Source: Bdellovibrionales bacterium (GTDB lineage: Bacteria; Bdellovibrionota; Bacteriovoracia; Bacteriovoracales; Bacteriovoracaceae). From it: a DNA stretch of 13,641 nt. The translations under genes were made by a program, and so were the position numbers. The stretch is taken from the NCBI GenBank assembly GCA_005791855.1, contig SXUH01000305.1:1-13641 (forward strand), given 5' to 3'. Shown here piece by piece: positions 1,020 to 13,023 of this stretch; the stretch's first letter is position 1; the number at the start of each line of letters is the position of its first letter. The notes under the pieces were generated by a model that was not told the DNA's origin, searched no databases, and worked only from the letters and a program-made list of their open reading frames with translations.

Positions 1020-2576
1020 CTACTTCTTCTTGGCTTCTTTGGCGAGCTCCACGAGGATCTCCTCAAGCTTGGCCCGGTTCTCCGGAGACCAGGACTTCAG
1101 CTGCAGGAAGGTTTCCGCGCCAGCCGGCTTCGGGGCCGGGAAGGTGGAAATGATCTCCAGGTACCCTTTCTGGATCTCGTCGATCTGCTTTTTCATGTCC
1201 GGGTACTTTTCAAACTCCGCCCAGGTGAACCTCTTGAGTGGTTCGGCGACCCAGTCGTAGAGCTCGGTGAAGTCGCGGAAGTTCCTCGGGGCCTGGGAGA
1301 AATCCCCTCCCCCGGGGTTACTCTGGGTCGGCGTGGACGAGTAGCCTAGGACGTAGCTCGAGAGGAGGAGCGGGATGGTATTTCCCCCAATGTGCTTCAC
1401 TTCGCTCTTCGGGAGTTCCGTGGTGAACGGCAGGGTCTCCGCGGCCGGATGGGTCTTCCGCCAGTAGTGGTAGTAGAGGGACGGCTCCCGGAAGGCCGCG
1501 ATGAGGGTCGAGTAGTTCATGATGTGCGGGCCCGGCAGCCCGAGATCGGACCTGACCGGAGGATAGGGAACGTGGGCCGGGTTCCAGAGGTCGAGCCGTG
1601 CGTACGGGTAGACCACGAGAAAATTTGTCTTGTCCGCATCCGTGCCGAACTTGGCCACGTGGTCTCTGAATCTCTCGAACCGGGCCTGGGCACTCGAGGC
1701 CGCGGCGGCTTCGTAGTCCTTCAGGTAGCTCGCGCGGAAATCCCGGTACGGTTTGTACTTCTCTTCCGTCAGGAAGTCCTGCCGGGTCGGATCGGTCTTC
1801 GAGCGGAAGACCTCCACCCAGTCCGTGGTTGTGAAGGGGAAGGAGGAGACGAACGCCTCGTTTAACTCTTCCACGGTGGTGATGGATTCGTAGATCTGCT
1901 TCGAGTGCCGCTCTTCGAGCTGGGCGTGGACGACGATGTCGAGGTTGGCGTTCTGCCGCTCGAAGAAGAACAGGTCCTTGCTTGCGAGGTCCACCAGGTG
2001 GCGATAGTTCGAAAGCTTCGGCGCCTCTTTCTTAAACTCTTCGAGGTACCTCTCCTCGAATTCAAACTTCGAGAGTTTACTCGAGCCGGCCTTCTTCCCA
2101 TACAGGCCTCCGTTCGCGCTCGAAGCGTAGAACCCGGGCCAGTGGGGGTACTCGTCCATGACCGGAACACCCTTATGGCAGGTGAAGCAGTTGGTCGGGT
2201 TCTTGTTAAGAACCGGCTTGCCTGATTGCCAGGAAATGGTTGCAAAAGTTGGAGCATTGAGACCATAGGCTTCGATGATCTCGATGTCTTTGTCTCCGGG
2301 TCTGGAGCCATTTCCATCATTGAAGGTCATGTAGAATTGATTATCGGGGGTGCGGAGAATGACACGGGGTTTTAGAGGCGATGCGCTTTGTAAGCTCCTA
2401 GAGCTGTACACCAAAGAGTAGGTCGATAGAAACTCTTTAGGCAAACTTCCGAGGAATGCGTCGATGGAAGCATAGTTGTTAACTTTGAGTTTCTCCTCAA
2501 GAGAATCCAGGTACGGAGTTTTTCCAAAGGTAAAACTAGAGTAGAGAACCAGTAAAAGGATCGATAGAGATTTCAT
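1020..2576 (-). CDS. large secreted protein with one c-type haem motif
   Basis: This is a 518-residue protein with a Sec signal peptide (about residues 1-18). A single CXXCH haem-attachment motif lies at 130-134 (CFTCH), followed by an aromatic stretch with YPHWPGFY at 143-150. I recall CXXCH followed by a WPG-type aromatic loop in uncharacterised secreted proteins of predatory and myxobacterial lineages, but I cannot name a family. The remaining roughly 370 residues match no fold I recognise. Haem would be attached covalently in the periplasm. The start is supported by GAGG four bases upstream (2581-2584). The gene leads an operon with the RidA-like gene and is divergent from another monohaem protein. 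About the first 115 codons are clearly more AT-rich than the rest. Electron transfer or a haem-dependent enzyme are both possible. Confidence 0.85.
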   Translation of the reverse strand: MKSLSILLLVLYSSFTFGKTPYLDSLEEKLKVNNYASIDAFLGSLPKEFLSTYSLVYSSRSLQSASPLKPRVILRTPDNQFYMTFNDGNGSRPGDKDIEIIEAYGLNAPTFATISWQSGKPVLNKNPTNCFTCHKGVPVMDEYPHWPGFYASSANGGLYGKKAGSSKLSKFEFEERYLEEFKKEAPKLSNYRHLVDLASKDLFFFERQNANLDIVVHAQLEERHSKQIYESITTVEELNEAFVSSFPFTTTDWVEVFRSKTDPTRQDFLTEEKYKPYRDFRASYLKDYEAAAASSAQARFERFRDHVAKFGTDADKTNFLVVYPYARLDLWNPAHVPYPPVRSDLGLPGPHIMNYSTLIAAFREPSLYYHYWRKTHPAAETLPFTTELPKSEVKHIGGNTIPLLLSSYVLGYSSTPTQSNPGGGDFSQAPRNFRDFTELYDWVAEPLKRFTWAEFEKYPDMKKQIDEIQKGYLEIISTFPAPKPAGAETFLQLKSWSPENRAKLEEILVELAKEAKKK

Positions 2577-2711: not shown

Positions 2712-3824
2712 ATGAAACTTCTAGTCTTAGTCATGAGTGTTTTATTTTTGACACCAGCACACTCACAAACCTGTTCGATCACTATCAACCAGCAGAAAGA
2801 ACTCCTCATCGTCGACCCATCCGTGGTGGATGATCCGAGAGCAACCCGAGGAGTCTGGAGCTTCGCCCACATCATGGCGGTGCTGAACGCTCACAAGCAC
2901 GACCTCTCCGACTTCACTCTCCACTGGCTCCAGGAGTGGACCACGAAGCAAACCGTTAACGGATTCGCGGTCGAGCCAAGGCCCACCGTGAATAATCTCA
3001 TCAACGGGTGGCCTAAACTCCCTAACGGCAAGCTCGACATGAGTAGGGCACCCTTCCGTCTGCTCGCCATCGTCAACCGGGTCGATCTCTCGAGCGCTCC
3101 GGCGGGTGAAGGTCGCTTCGTCTACGGTCTCCTCGATCCTCAGGGGAGACCCCTCCCCTTCACCGTGATCTTCGAGTTCGTCCTTCCGGTCTCCCAGTTC
3201 AATAACCCGGTCCCCGTGATCGCCTGGGCCAAGACCTGGCACCAGCTCGGGAACATTCCTTTTGGCGAATCCTTCAACCAGGCCCTGGAGAAGATCACGG
3301 GCGCCTTCGCTCGTCCGGGGACCATCAACCAAGTCCGGACCAACGAGATCGTCTTCGGGCCGACCTGGCAGATGCGGGAGTTCACCCTGGGTCTGAATGG
3401 CCACCTCGAGAGCTCACCCACCAAACAGATGCCGGACGAAGCCTTCGTCGATTCACCCGACCTCGCCAACTGGATTCGCCTGAACGCGGAAACCATCAAC
3501 GCCGGTGCGCACGTCGTTCCCCTCCGGACCATCGGTGGGACCGGCCACGCCCCGAGGAGCTGGGCACCGTCTCTTGCAAACGATCCGAACCCGGCCATCC
3601 GATCGGCCCGGAGGAACTTCTCGATCCAGACCTGCACCGGCTGCCACTCGAGCGATACCAACACGGCCTTCCTCCACGTCGAACCGAGGGCCGCGGGACC
3701 GTCTAAGATCTCAAACTTCCTCATCGCCGACCTGAACCTGCGAGTGGAGAAGATGAAACAGATGCTCTGCTTTACCCCGGGGGAAGTGGCACGCCGACTC
3801 CGCATGAGCACGCGGGTCCACTAG
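2712..3824 (+). CDS. secreted protein with one C-terminal c-type haem motif
   Basis: This is a 370-residue protein with a Sec signal peptide (residues 1-18, ending AHS) and one CXXCH motif at 308-312 (CTGCH), in a stretch beginning NFSIQ and followed by SSDTNTAFLHVEPR. A central segment, RLLAIVNRVDL (116-126) followed by GEGRFVYG (132-139), looks like a conserved core. I associate this arrangement with uncharacterised secreted proteins of myxobacteria and Bdellovibrio relatives, but no function is established that I know of. The start is supported by GGAG at 2704-2707. Haem attachment would take place in the periplasm. The protein differs from the divergent monohaem protein in length and haem position, so they are not recent duplicates. 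Confidence 0.85.
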   Translation: MKLLVLVMSVLFLTPAHSQTCSITINQQKELLIVDPSVVDDPRATRGVWSFAHIMAVLNAHKHDLSDFTLHWLQEWTTKQTVNGFAVEPRPTVNNLINGWPKLPNGKLDMSRAPFRLLAIVNRVDLSSAPAGEGRFVYGLLDPQGRPLPFTVIFEFVLPVSQFNNPVPVIAWAKTWHQLGNIPFGESFNQALEKITGAFARPGTINQVRTNEIVFGPTWQMREFTLGLNGHLESSPTKQMPDEAFVDSPDLANWIRLNAETINAGAHVVPLRTIGGTGHAPRSWAPSLANDPNPAIRSARRNFSIQTCTGCHSSDTNTAFLHVEPRAAGPSKISNFLIADLNLRVEKMKQMLCFTPGEVARRLRMSTRVH

Positions 3825-5269: not shown

Positions 5270-5285
5270 GGGCCATCGCCGGAAC
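5261..5285. terminator. weak bidirectional stem-loop between convergent genes
   Basis: GTTCC (5261-5265) pairs with GGAAC (5281-5285), and GGC (5271-5273) with GCC (5278-5280), around a CATC loop and a five-base bulge. It lies exactly at the ends of the permease and kinase genes. No T-run follows on either strand, so it is at best a partial terminator. Confidence 0.25.
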
Positions 5286-6553
5286 TAACTGGTGCGCGGG
5301 AGCTCGAAGGTGAAGGTCGCTCCCTGGCCGGGTTCGCTCTCCACCCAGATCCTCCCGCCGTGGGCGCGGACGATCTCCGCGGAGATGTAGAGCCCGAGTC
5401 CCAGGCCACTGACCTCACTCGCCGAGATCGCTCGCTCGAAGCGGTCGAAGATTCGGGCATGGTCTTCTTTGGCGATCCCTGTGCCCTGGTCGCGCACGGA
5501 CACCCGGACCGAGTCCGGGGAATCTTCGAGCCGGAGCTCCACCGGTTTCTTCGCTCCGTACTTCAGGGCATTGGTTAGGAGGTTCGCCAGCGCCTGCTCG
5601 ATCCGAAACTTGTCCCACTCGCCAATGCTCTGGTGGCACTGGATGATTCTGAATGCGACCCCCGCGCTCTGGAACTGGGCCCCCATCCGTTCCGTGACGT
5701 CGGTGATGAGCTGGCAGAGGTCGACGGATTCCCGTTCGATGTGGAGCTTTCCGGTGGAGATCCGCGAGATGTCTAGCATGTCGTCCACTAAGCGGGCCAG
5801 GCGTTTGACGTCTCGGATGTTGTGGTCGAGGAGGCGGTCGATCTTCTCCTTGGAGTATACGCTCTCGTCTCCTTTCGCAGCAGACCGTCGCATCGTCTGC
5901 GTGTGGAGCGAGAGGGTGGTGAGCGGGGTCTTCAGCTCATGGGAGGCGATGGAGAGGAACTCGTCTCTCGCGAGGACAGCGTCCTGGAGCCTTCGCACCA
6001 GCCCCTCGCGTTCCCGGTCGAACTGGTCCTGCTGGGTGACGTCCTCGATGAGCGCGACGTAGCCTCGCACATTCTGGTTCTGGTCGAGGTCCGGGAGGTA
6101 GGAGATCCTAACGGTGATCTGCGATCCCTTCGCGAAGAGCGAGCTCCGGTACTCGAGCTTCTCGCCTCCGAGGGCCCGTCTGATGTAGGGCTCGAGCTTG
6201 GGGTAAGACTCCTCCCCGATGAACTCCTGGATTGTCTTCCCTCTCATCCCCTCGGGAGAGATGCCGAACCACTCGGTGTAGGTGGCGTTGGCGTACCGGT
6301 ACCGTTCATCGCGGTCGACGTAGGCGATGAGCACCGGCAGGGAGTCGGTGATGAGCTTCAACTGACTTTCGCTCCTCGCGAGGGCCTCGGTCCGCTCCGC
6401 GACTCGTTGTTCGAGGTCCTGGGTCAGGGCCTCCAGGTCCAGGCGGCGTTGCTCGGAGAGCTTCGCCGCCTCGGCCACGGTGAGGATCGGATGGCGGAGC
6501 TTCCAGAGGTACACGCCGGTTCCGACGGAGGCGACGGCGGTGATGACCTTCAC
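5285..6553 (-). CDS. PAS sensor histidine kinase, downstream part of a gene split by TAG
   Basis: This 422-residue open frame holds the third membrane helix (about residues 4-18), a coiled linker (30-65), a PAS domain (about 66-180) and a full histidine kinase core. Visible boxes are H (SHELKTP, phospho-acceptor His205), N (NLLTNALKY, 324-332), G1 (DQGTGI, 355-360), F (IFDRFER) and G2 (GLGLGL, 383-388), so the catalytic part is intact. The frame is continuous with the upstream membrane fragment across a single TAG at 6581-6583. The full gene is 5285-6883, which would give 532 residues if the TAG were sense. The GTG at 6553 is only a formal start with no good ribosome site, and starting there would leave one membrane helix and no sensing domain. 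The kinase would phosphorylate a response regulator; a stand-alone one is encoded at 12189-12554, but pairing is a guess. Confidence 0.85.
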   Translation of the reverse strand: MKVITAVASVGTGVYLWKLRHPILTVAEAAKLSEQRRLDLEALTQDLEQRVAERTEALARSESQLKLITDSLPVLIAYVDRDERYRYANATYTEWFGISPEGMRGKTIQEFIGEESYPKLEPYIRRALGGEKLEYRSSLFAKGSQITVRISYLPDLDQNQNVRGYVALIEDVTQQDQFDREREGLVRRLQDAVLARDEFLSIASHELKTPLTTLSLHTQTMRRSAAKGDESVYSKEKIDRLLDHNIRDVKRLARLVDDMLDISRISTGKLHIERESVDLCQLITDVTERMGAQFQSAGVAFRIIQCHQSIGEWDKFRIEQALANLLTNALKYGAKKPVELRLEDSPDSVRVSVRDQGTGIAKEDHARIFDRFERAISASEVSGLGLGLYISAEIVRAHGGRIWVESEPGQGATFTFELPRTS

Positions 6554-6580
6554 TCCGCCGCTGTACCAGTAGTCGGAGTA

Positions 6581-6583
6581 CTA
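6581..6583 (-). other. in-frame amber codon inside the kinase gene
   Basis: The plus strand reads CTA, so the gene strand reads TAG. It falls after residue 100 (NEIWNL) and before YSDYWYSGG, between membrane helices 2 and 3. The reading frame is the same on both sides and no frameshift is needed. Related membrane domains, as I recall them, often have Trp in this loop, so a single TGG-to-TAG change is the simplest origin. Confidence 0.9.
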
Positions 6584-6883
6584 GAGGTTCCAGATCTCGT
6601 TGTAGTGGGTCCAGCCGCACGCCCCGATGAAGACCCCGAAGCACAAAACGATCCGGTTGAAGCCGAGGTTGATCTTCCGGATCAACCAGTACAGGGTGAC
6701 GGAGATCACGAGGTAGGCGGTTCCGATGAGGAAGTCCGAGGTCACGTGGACGGTGACGAGACCCGGCTTCCAGAGATAGCAGTGCCCGTGGGGCATGAAA
6801 TCTGCTTCGGAAAAATATGTGACGAGATCGTTCCACCAGAAGCCGCTGCTCGCGTGTTGGCTAGCGTCATGTGCGTGTTCCAT
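6581..6883 (-). CDS. ethylene-receptor-like membrane domain, upstream part of the split kinase gene
   Basis: One hundred residues precede the TAG. The start at 6883 has a GGGGGA ribosome site, whereas the longer frame opening at 7342 is antisense to the dehydrogenase. Helix 1 (about 46-66) contains SDFLIGTAY and helix 2 (about 76-95) contains CGWTH. These align by eye with the plant ETR1 ethylene-binding domain: Asp25, Tyr32, Cys65 and His69 of ETR1 correspond to Asp50, Tyr57, Cys89 and His93 here, where the Cys and His are the copper(I) ligands. ETR1 Pro36 is Ser61 here. The preceding HGHCYLWKP stretch (32-40) is a feature I associate with bacterial members of this family. Alone, the fragment lacks the third helix and all signalling parts. 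Ethylene binding is possible but not shown. Confidence 0.8.
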   Translation of the reverse strand: MEHAHDASQHASSGFWWNDLVTYFSEADFMPHGHCYLWKPGLVTVHVTSDFLIGTAYLVISVTLYWLIRKINLGFNRIVLCFGVFIGACGWTHYNEIWNL

Positions 6884-6974
6884 TTGTCCCCCGATGTATG
6901 ATGCTACATTAGTTTCCTCAAGAATAGAAAGGAAAGGCCTGGCTCTTGCATGAAAGTGAGCATCGGAGGTATCT

Positions 6975-10783: not shown

Positions 10784-12192
10784 AGGAGTTTCTCGTCCCC
10801 CTCATCCAGGCGGTGTTCGTCGTCAGCATCGGCTACTACACCTTCGCCAACACCATCTACCTCGTCCTCCTCTTCTTCGCCTACCGGGACATCCGGAGAA
10901 GCAAGCTCCAGACCCCGCTCATGATCCAGGAGCTCCGGAGCACGCCCCCGGCCTTCGCCCCGGCGATCTCCATCATCGCTCCGGCCTACAACGAAGCCCT
11001 CACGGTGGTGGCGTCGGTGAAGTCCTTCCTCCTCCTGAACTACCCGGTCTTCGAAGTGGTGGTGGTCAACGACGGAAGCAAGGACCGGACCCTCGAGGAG
11101 CTCACGGCGCACTTCAAGCTCGTCGAAGAGCACACCTTCCAGGACTCGCGCCTCACCCACGCCCGCGTCCGGGGGATCTACCGCTCGGAGATCCACCCGA
11201 ACGTCATCGTCGTAGACAAGGAGAACGGCGGGAAAGCCGACGCCATCAACGCGGGCCTCGCGGTCTCCAAGTACCCGCTCTTCTGCGCCGTCGACAGCGA
11301 CTCGGTCCTCGAGGAGGACGCCCTCCTGCGGATCGCGGTTCCATTCTTCGAGGACCCGGAGAAGACCGTCGCCGCCGGGGGGACCATCCGCCTCCTCAAC
11401 GGCAGCAAGGTCGTCCACGGAAGAGTGACCAGGCCCAGCCTCGCCCGGGAACCGCTGGTCCTCATGCAGAACGTGGAGTACATCCGCGCCTTCCTCTGTG
11501 GCCGGGTCGGCTGGAACGCGTTCAACGCGACCCTGGTGATCTCCGGGGCCTTCGGCCTCTTCAAGAAGGAGGCCGTCCTCGGGGCCGGCGCCTATAACAA
11601 GAACTCCATCGGCGAAGACATGGAGCTCGTGGTTCGCCTCCACCGCTACTACACCGAAACGAAGAAGGAACCGTACCGCATCGTCTTCATCCCGGACCCC
11701 GTCTGCTGGACGGAGGTCCCGTTCGAACTCGGCTCCCTCTCCCGGCAGCGGGTCCGGTGGCAGCGGGGTCTGGCCGACACGCTCCTGAGCAACCGGGACC
11801 TCCTGAGCTGGAGGTACCGGGCGCTGGGACTCGTCGCCGTCCCCTACTTCTACCTCGTCGAGCTCTGGGGCCCGCTCTTCGAGATCGGGAACTGGATCGC
11901 GATCCTCCTCGCGTACGCCTTCGGCATCCTCAACCAGGAGCTCCTCCTCCTCTTCTTCCTCATCGGCATCGTCTACGGCCTCTTCATGACCCTCATGGCG
12001 GTCCTCATCGAGGAGAAGTACTTCCGGAAGCAGAGTAGCCTCTCGGAGTTCTGCCTCGTCTTCCTCTTCGGCTTCCTCGAGACCTTCGGCTTCCGCCAGC
12101 TGACCTCGTTCTGGCGGATCAAGGGCCTGTGGCTCCAGCTCACCAAGCAGCAGACCGTCTGGGGAGAGATGAAGCGGAAGGGAAGCTCCTAG
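10780..12192 (+). CDS. processive family-2 glycosyltransferase (YaiP/PgaC-like)
   Basis: This is a 470-residue membrane glycosyltransferase starting at GTG 10780, inside the GTGA overlap with the HEAT gene. An upstream extension in this frame is a GC-rich shadow of that gene. Order: N-terminal helix (8-36); GT-A fold with NDGS (97-100), DSDS (172-175, the metal-binding DxD), GED (278-280, general base) and QRVRW (323-327, the Q/RxxRW acceptor motif of processive enzymes); then several C-terminal helices (349-412, 424-440). This is the layout of poly-N-acetylglucosamine, hyaluronan and cellulose synthase-type enzymes, which polymerise a nucleotide sugar and move the chain across the inner membrane. 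All catalytic motifs are present. With the adjacent YaiO-type barrel it resembles E. coli YaiO/YaiP. The sugar is unknown. Its stop shares a CTAG with the convergent response regulator. Confidence 0.93.
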   Translation: MKEFLVPLIQAVFVVSIGYYTFANTIYLVLLFFAYRDIRRSKLQTPLMIQELRSTPPAFAPAISIIAPAYNEALTVVASVKSFLLLNYPVFEVVVVNDGSKDRTLEELTAHFKLVEEHTFQDSRLTHARVRGIYRSEIHPNVIVVDKENGGKADAINAGLAVSKYPLFCAVDSDSVLEEDALLRIAVPFFEDPEKTVAAGGTIRLLNGSKVVHGRVTRPSLAREPLVLMQNVEYIRAFLCGRVGWNAFNATLVISGAFGLFKKEAVLGAGAYNKNSIGEDMELVVRLHRYYTETKKEPYRIVFIPDPVCWTEVPFELGSLSRQRVRWQRGLADTLLSNRDLLSWRYRALGLVAVPYFYLVELWGPLFEIGNWIAILLAYAFGILNQELLLLFFLIGIVYGLFMTLMAVLIEEKYFRKQSSLSEFCLVFLFGFLETFGFRQLTSFWRIKGLWLQLTKQQTVWGEMKRKGSS

Positions 12193-12554
12193 GCCCGAGC
12201 CAGGATGCCCTTGACCCTCGCGACCATCTCCCGCGGGCTGAACGGTTTCTGGATGAAGTCCAGGGCTCCGTGGCCCAGGCCCCGGAGGATGTCCTCGTCG
12301 GATTTCTGAACGGCGAGGACGATGGTCTTGAGCCTGATCTGCCGCTTGGCCAGTTCCTCCATGAGCTCGAACCCGTTCAGCCCCGGCATGAGGAGGTCGG
12401 TGATGAGGAGGCTCGGCGGAGTGGTGAGGATGAAGTCCAGCGCCGCGATCCCGTCCGGGACCACGAACACCAGGAACCCGGCCTTCTCCAGGGAAAACTT
12501 GATCAGCGTTGCGGTTTCTTCCGAGTCTTCGGCGACGAGGATGGACTGGGTCAT
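12189..12554 (-). CDS. stand-alone response regulator receiver domain
   Basis: This 121-residue single receiver domain has no output domain (CheY/Spo0F style). The acidic pocket is Glu9-Asp10, the phospho-acceptor is Asp53 (ITDLLMPGLNG), and the conserved Lys is Lys103 followed by Pro104. The usual Thr/Ser switch residue after beta-4 is Ala81 (TIVLAV), so the standard conformational switch may be altered. The start at 12554 fits the family N-terminus; a longer in-frame version is not receiver-like and overlaps the neighbouring gene. A good promoter at 12562-12590 places transcription almost at the ATG. The stop overlaps the glycosyltransferase stop. It may regulate glycan synthesis by protein contact, or relay phosphate from a kinase; the window's only kinase is the amber-split one. 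Confidence 0.92.
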   Translation of the reverse strand: MTQSILVAEDSEETATLIKFSLEKAGFLVFVVPDGIAALDFILTTPPSLLITDLLMPGLNGFELMEELAKRQIRLKTIVLAVQKSDEDILRGLGHGALDFIQKPFSPREMVARVKGILARA

Positions 12555-12561
12555 GAGCCCT

Positions 12562-12590
12562 ATTCTAACCCACGACCCAGTCCCGATCAA
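12562..12590 (-). promoter_or_regulatory. promoter of the response regulator
   Basis: On the minus strand TTGATC (12585-12590) and TAGAAT (12562-12567) are spaced by exactly 17 bp, with four and five of six consensus matches. The predicted start is near 12555, next to the ATG at 12554. The AGGG that could act as ribosome site would then not be transcribed, which implies a leaderless message from this promoter. Confidence 0.55.
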
Positions 12591-12597
12591 TGCGAAA

Positions 12598-13023
12598 CTA
12601 CCGCCGGTCCCACTCCACGCAGATAGCATACGACACGTGTCCGGCGAGCGGCCCAAAATCCCTCCCCGCGTCCTGGCCGAAGAGGCCCTTGATCGCGGTC
12701 GCGGTCGCTTTAAAAGAGACGGCGTAGATCCGCTGGGTGGTCACCTTGTTTCCGAACTCTACCGGGACCTCCCGGATGAAGGTCACGGAGCTGAGCTTCA
12801 GCTCGAACCCCTCCACCTCCGTCCCGAACTGGTGATCCGGTCCGCGCTGGTAAACGAACGACGGGTTCCAGACGCCGGCCCTCGACATCGGCCCTTGCTT
12901 GACGAGGTTGAGGTTGAACTGGCCCTGCTTGGTGTAGCTGAAGATGTTGTGGCAGGAGACGTCGACGTTCGCGGCGGCGACGGTCGAGGCCAGAAGAAGA
13001 ACTAGTGTCCAGATGGATTTCAT
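12598..13023 (-). CDS. small secreted protein, function unknown
   Basis: This 141-residue protein has a Sec signal peptide (1-18, ending VAAA) and a mature body of alternating polar and hydrophobic segments that looks beta-rich. Two Cys (24 and 135) near the two ends could close the domain by a disulfide. The family is not recognised. The ribosome site GGGAG lies about five bases before the ATG. The gene follows the copper-protein gene on the same strand after 108 bases that contain strong inverted repeats, so it may be read from its own promoter or be controlled by that structure. It precedes the response regulator by 43 bases, but that gene has its own promoter. Confidence 0.82.
   Translation of the reverse strand: MKSIWTLVLLLASTVAAANVDVSCHNIFSYTKQGQFNLNLVKQGPMSRAGVWNPSFVYQRGPDHQFGTEVEGFELKLSSVTFIREVPVEFGNKVTTQRIYAVSFKATATAIKGLFGQDAGRDFGPLAGHVSYAICVEWDRR

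Follow-up and report, generated by a model that had tools for sequence, protein, structure and literature searches.

The window, a stretch of 13,641 nucleotides, carries a sensor histidine kinase gene with the layout of AzoEtr1 in which one nonsense codon stands at a conserved Trp position, and we consider it most likely, with a probability of about 0.7, that the gene is an inactive recent pseudogene or a null allele in the population sampled. Its layout is a three-helix ETR1_N membrane domain, a coiled coil, and PAS, HisKA and HATPase domains. The window, contig C256, belongs to a genome bin of 2,996,544 bases in 462 contigs, estimated to be 59.8% complete, whose host is probably a relative of Bdellovibrio-like bacteria.

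One domain interrupted at codon 101

Translation of 6883-5285 on the minus strand gives a single frame of 100 residues, a TAG at 6581-6583, 431 residues, and a terminal TAG at 5285-5287, with no other stop between these ends. A sequence-only reading of the same DNA had described two pieces in one frame separated by that TAG and free of a second lesion, and its description holds, including the coordinates and a length of 532 residues with the TAG counted as one residue. The features are as follows.

6887-6892, minus strand: GGGGGA upstream of the ATG, a plausible ribosome-binding site
6881-6883, minus strand: ATG start codon of the sensor kinase (sequence)
6674-6766, minus strand: membrane helix 1, residues 40-70, with Asp50 and Ser61 (read-through model, hydropathy, conservation)
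6590-6658, minus strand: membrane helix 2, residues 76-98, with Cys89 and His93 (read-through model, hydropathy, conservation)
6581-6583, minus strand: in-frame TAG at codon 101, within the loop that joins helices 2 and 3 (sequence, related loci, model)
6500-6571, minus strand: membrane helix 3, residues 105-128, downstream of the TAG (read-through model, hydropathy)
6551-6553, minus strand: GTG, codon 111, the earliest in-frame one past the TAG and start of a predicted product of 422 residues (P0001)
6026-6346, minus strand: PAS domain, PAS_4 (Pfam)
5750-5971, minus strand: HisKA domain, with the phospho-acceptor His in HELKTP (Pfam)
5291-5614, minus strand: HATPase_c domain (Pfam)
5285-5287, minus strand: TAG terminator of the sensor kinase gene (sequence)

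The N-terminal piece alone matches ETR1_N (PF25487) with 59.4 bits over model positions 2-61 of 97, above the curated cut-off of 27, and the Pfam matches of the C-terminal piece are PAS_4, HisKA and HATPase_c. When stops are read through in a six-frame search, one ETR1_N match extends over 6482-6760 with 95 bits and model positions 2-95, with the TAG inside it. Since a single match crosses the stop and rises from 59 to 95 bits, the two pieces form one domain and one gene that has been cut, not just two adjacent frames. The closest full-length orthologues among the matches listed are likewise fused to the upstream domain, as expected of a single gene; P0002, the closest of the 120 proteins listed, is fused and uninterrupted and has 68% identity over 96% of the query. 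Coding bias is gene-like upstream and downstream of the TAG. All kinase residues that are invariant in a 50-row alignment are present, which bears out the earlier statement that the kinase boxes are intact; the HisKA and HATPase_c boxes are kept, yet the stop at codon 101 leaves the kinase without an uninterrupted frame to the sensor. In 212,502 bases of the genome, this TAG ranked second for coding bias among stops flanked by open frames. First in rank was L160, which has an ATG two codons past its stop. Pfam searches of five lower-ranked pairs showed two different genes in four of them and gave no match for the fifth.

Modelled with AlphaFold2, the read-through protein (mean pLDDT 85.5, pTM 0.53) shows helices at residues 40-70, 76-98 and 105-128 and a long helix reaching residue 181, followed by the PAS fold and the kinase domains. 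A hydropathy peak lies at residue 50, in helix 1. Codon 101 falls in the short loop that joins membrane helices 2 and 3, where the TAG had been placed from the letters alone. Promoter and terminator scans gave no signal exceeding shuffles, and no solved structure matching the domain profile was found at E 0.1.

The codon itself is strongly conserved. Among the best 80 of 364 confirmed loci, drawn from public genomes with search patterns that did not include this position, the codon-101 column reads TGG (Trp) in 79 and TAT in one, consistent with an interrupted Trp codon. Trp occupies the position in 16/16 homologues of one protein alignment and in 49/49 of a second, the latter chosen for similar length from the 120 proteins listed. 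A further alignment, read by eye, has Trp in 15/16 other rows, the exception being a locus of another genus (L043) with Thr in a divergent domain.

If the base is real, translation would end past residue 100 and leave a two-helix fragment that has the copper-ligand positions and no kinase. Purines immediately abut the GTG of codon 111, a spacing that appears poor for ribosome binding, and this earliest start lies inside helix 3. A kinase part made from it would be severed from the sensor and would lack the copper-ligand positions.

Sensor residues and known receptors

Judging from residue spacing and the ETR1 sequence, we take Asp50, Cys89 and His93 to correspond to the copper-ligand positions of ETR1. 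The same residues are found in 78/80, 79/80 and 80/80 loci, respectively. Residue 61 (6701-6703) is Ser where ETR1 has Pro36. Among the best 80 of 364 confirmed loci, 49 have Pro at this position and 25 have Ser, and Ser fills it in at least 90% of the rows of a 50-row alignment of PAS-bearing ETR1_N kinases. The full set of seven ethylene-binding residues, taken to include Pro36, is not present in the window's gene, which has Ser61 there. With Leu at this position (Pro36Leu), tomato ETR3 is ethylene insensitive, as summarized in PMC6727826, but Ser differs from Leu; the relevant portions of PMC11819568 and PMC6682694 state that seven residues are required for ethylene binding by ETR1, and those of PMC12643061 give its copper ligands as Asp25, Cys65 and His69. 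By analogy, Asp50, Cys89 and His93 may be copper ligands as well. In view of the Ser at the Pro36 position, ethylene sensing by this kinase is uncertain. The proposal that ethylene or copper sensing had been lost therefore stands in part, with the copper-ligand positions kept and the link to ethylene weakened by Ser61, and it should read as the loss of an ETR1_N sensor without an assigned ligand.

The closest parallel in layout is AzoEtr1 of Azospirillum brasilense Sp7 which, as portrayed in parts of PMC11819568, shares the three-helix ethylene-binding domain, the PAS domain and the histidine kinase, and has about 525 residues, compared with 532 in the window's gene. According to the same source, AzoEtr1 is an intact protein that retains the seven ETR1 binding residues in full and binds ethylene, whereas the window's frame is stopped and has Ser at the Pro36 position. 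The two also differ in context: a predicted response regulator gene lies immediately downstream of AzoEtr1 (PMC11819568, in part), whereas no response regulator adjoins the window's kinase. The window does encode a response regulator at 12189-12656 on the minus strand, about 5.3 kb from the start of the sensor kinase and with no kinase adjoining it.

SynEtr1 of Synechocystis and plant ETR1 have an ETR1_N domain with Asp, Cys and His at the copper-ligand positions, as here (sections of PMC6682694 and PMC12643061; for SynEtr1, an alignment statement in PMC11819568). The domains downstream differ from those of the window's gene in both, with GAF, kinase and receiver domains in plant ETR1, and both are intact functional receptors, as far as these sections describe them. 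Searches of one literature collection found no paper joining Bdellovibrio, pseudogene, histidine kinase and nonsense mutation, and none joining in-frame stop codon, histidine kinase and metagenome-assembled; the papers listed on Bdellovibrio and ethylene receptor, or on Bacteriovoracaceae and ethylene, were seemingly unrelated by their titles and the beginnings of their abstracts.

Explanations of the stop codon

The window's gene combines a lesion at a conserved position with little other decay, in a base taken from a draft consensus. That a very recent nonsense mutation had occurred, as the sequence-only reading inferred, is in line with the interruption of a conserved TGG site; its recency is weakly supported, because the evidence for it is the lack of a second lesion. 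In 3000 runs of a neutral simulation (uniform over sites, half of changes transitions, no indels), a further stop arose at a median of 0.011 substitutions per site, with a 95% point of 0.051, and such decay times imply that the gene is either a young pseudogene or no pseudogene. Both halves have retained their coding bias in full, along with the invariant kinase residues; this fits a very young pseudogene and, just as well, a gene still whole in the cell.

The alternative that merits most attention is an error of sequencing or assembly, with a sense codon in the cell and an intact gene, which we regard as unlikely yet realistic. The bin is fragmented and incomplete, no other lesion is present and coding bias is undiminished. 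Moreover, another kinase of the bin also has a single stop. This second PAS histidine kinase (L162, on G000:C30) has a TAG at 17161-17163 on the minus strand, inside its first PAS domain, and is the only one of 47 kinase matches in the bin with an internal stop. Under a reading by chance alone, this second TAG must be a coincidence. Isolated in-frame stops also occur among ETR1_N kinases of related drafts, at 2/80 loci, each with a single in-frame TAA: L133, from a Sericytochromatia draft metagenome bin, and L119, from a Byssovorax draft metagenome bin, where the TAA interrupts a longer kinase frame. In view of these two cases, a lone stop in a draft-genome copy of such a gene is unremarkable. 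In addition, the copper-ligand Cys is missing from L133. Against an error speaks the rarity of stops in conserved domains across the bin, which number 0 in 25 ABC_tran matches, 0 in 49 Response_reg matches and 1 in 34 PAS_4 matches, the one being L162. A protein of 567 residues (P0121), encoded on a contig of 20,810 bases, begins past the TAG of L162 with 100% identity to it and is the only near-identical protein among the matches listed; it may share source data with L162 and so is not counted as confirmation.

A scan for interrupted genes covered 82 pieces, or 549,619 of the 2,996,544 bases, made up of the window and L162 as known interrupted cases, 20 contigs with kinase or tRNA matches, and 60 taken by number. 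Nine candidate pairs, drawn from lists of 45 and 30, were tested by Pfam: in six the two frames belonged to different genes, L162 proved to be an interrupted PAS domain, and L148 (at 3446) and L198 had no Pfam matches. The remaining candidates, judged by eye, are probably frames opposite real genes or gene starts. Stops noted in kinases of three other genomes (G011, G016 and G003) lie where the match ends and were set aside as ordinary terminators.

Programmed read-through, suppression or recoding of the TAG, which would yield a full-length sensor, is very improbable. Two kinases of the bin have a conserved domain interrupted cleanly by an in-frame TAG, and the bin yielded no gene for release factor 1 or 2; with the bin at 59.8% completeness and about 40% of the genome missing, the latter is uninformative. 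The bin's single RF-1-domain match is a frame of 139 residues that is ArfB-like in our reading. On the other side, TAG is the stop used most often by the long frames whose end is visible in the 549,619 bases (102/267, with 86 TAA and 79 TGA; the frames were picked mechanically and a few may be false), and it ends the window's own gene. No CUA anticodon was present among the 16 tRNAs found in the bin, an incomplete set, and PylS was above the cut-off in 0/29 genomes, with weak matches below it in 23/29 and likewise in most control genomes. Release factor 1 was above the cut-off in 16/17 same-genus relatives searched, and the RNA fold downstream of the TAG is nothing unusual (z -0.46). The two TAGs also share no common amino acid: by our own reading, with the alignment inspected by eye, the stop of L162 lies at a position that varies among PAS domains, whereas that of the window replaces a conserved Trp. 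The earlier suggestion of recoding is unsupported on several counts.

Equally poor are the prospects of a strain polymorphism in which intact and interrupted alleles coexist in the population and the assembler kept the interrupted one. As general knowledge, such variation is expected of metagenome bins, and the gene is otherwise whole, but among the 120 proteins listed there was no intact copy from the same species, the nearest intact one having 68% identity. We give still less credence to the idea that the TAG in two PAS kinases, that of the window and L162, represents a reversible or leaky switch, with copper or small-gas sensing deployed by the population as bet-hedging instead of undergoing loss; no more credible is its mechanism, in which the kinase would be turned off by an ordinary nonsense mutation and regained by reversion or low-level read-through.

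The least plausible proposal is a deliberate division of the gene, giving a small membrane protein and a kinase made separately. It could appeal to the first 100 residues, which include helices 1 and 2 and the copper-ligand positions, and to the GTG at codon 111, but it conflicts with a cut inside the membrane domain, with a GTG that would start within helix 3 in a poor ribosome-binding context, and with a domain that lies in a frame of at least 395 codons at 79/80 related loci (measured from mid-domain, which overlooks early stops such as that of L133), the one short frame, of 172 codons in L119, itself being the product of its in-frame TAA. Insertions into AzoEtr1, placed either between its first two helices or past helix 3, left Azospirillum cells with little or no ethylene binding, as reported in the relevant part of PMC11819568, which makes a functional split of the window's gene unlikely.

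Overall, the window's TAG looks like a case with an ordinary explanation, with no new coding trick and nothing that departs from known biology.

Distribution and decay in the genus

An inactive pseudogene or null allele, our preferred reading, would place this loss in a genus with a patchy distribution of the gene and with a decayed copy in one relative. Of the 58 genomes searched, 11 have ETR1_N; within the genus it is present in 7 of 26, the window's own bin included. The ETR1_N-bearing frame is open for 410 to 824 codons in G003, G006, G010, G012 and G013. In another same-genus genome, an ETR1_N-PAS kinase of the same layout and gene family (L044, on G009:C38 at 1290-2684) has several frameshifts and stops as well as missing pieces, in contrast to the single stop of the window's gene; one of these stops replaces a different conserved Trp. 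Around six relatives' copies, searched as 14-20 kb stretches (tblastn, 1e-5), 0/10 other window proteins compared were matched, and this lack of shared neighbours suggests either mobility of the gene or its frequent loss and regain. Two other window proteins, of 518 residues (1020-2576, minus strand) and 370 residues (2712-3824, plus strand), have no Pfam match and each contain a CxxCH motif that we read as haem-binding-like.

If the base is real, the window would add a further example of the loss of an accessory sensor and, together with the intact copies and the decayed one, would form a natural series (intact, single stop, decayed) for tracking how ethylene-receptor-like kinases are lost. 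Additionally, Ser in place of Pro36 is common among the aligned relatives, which raises the question of whether these AzoEtr1-like kinases sense ethylene at all.
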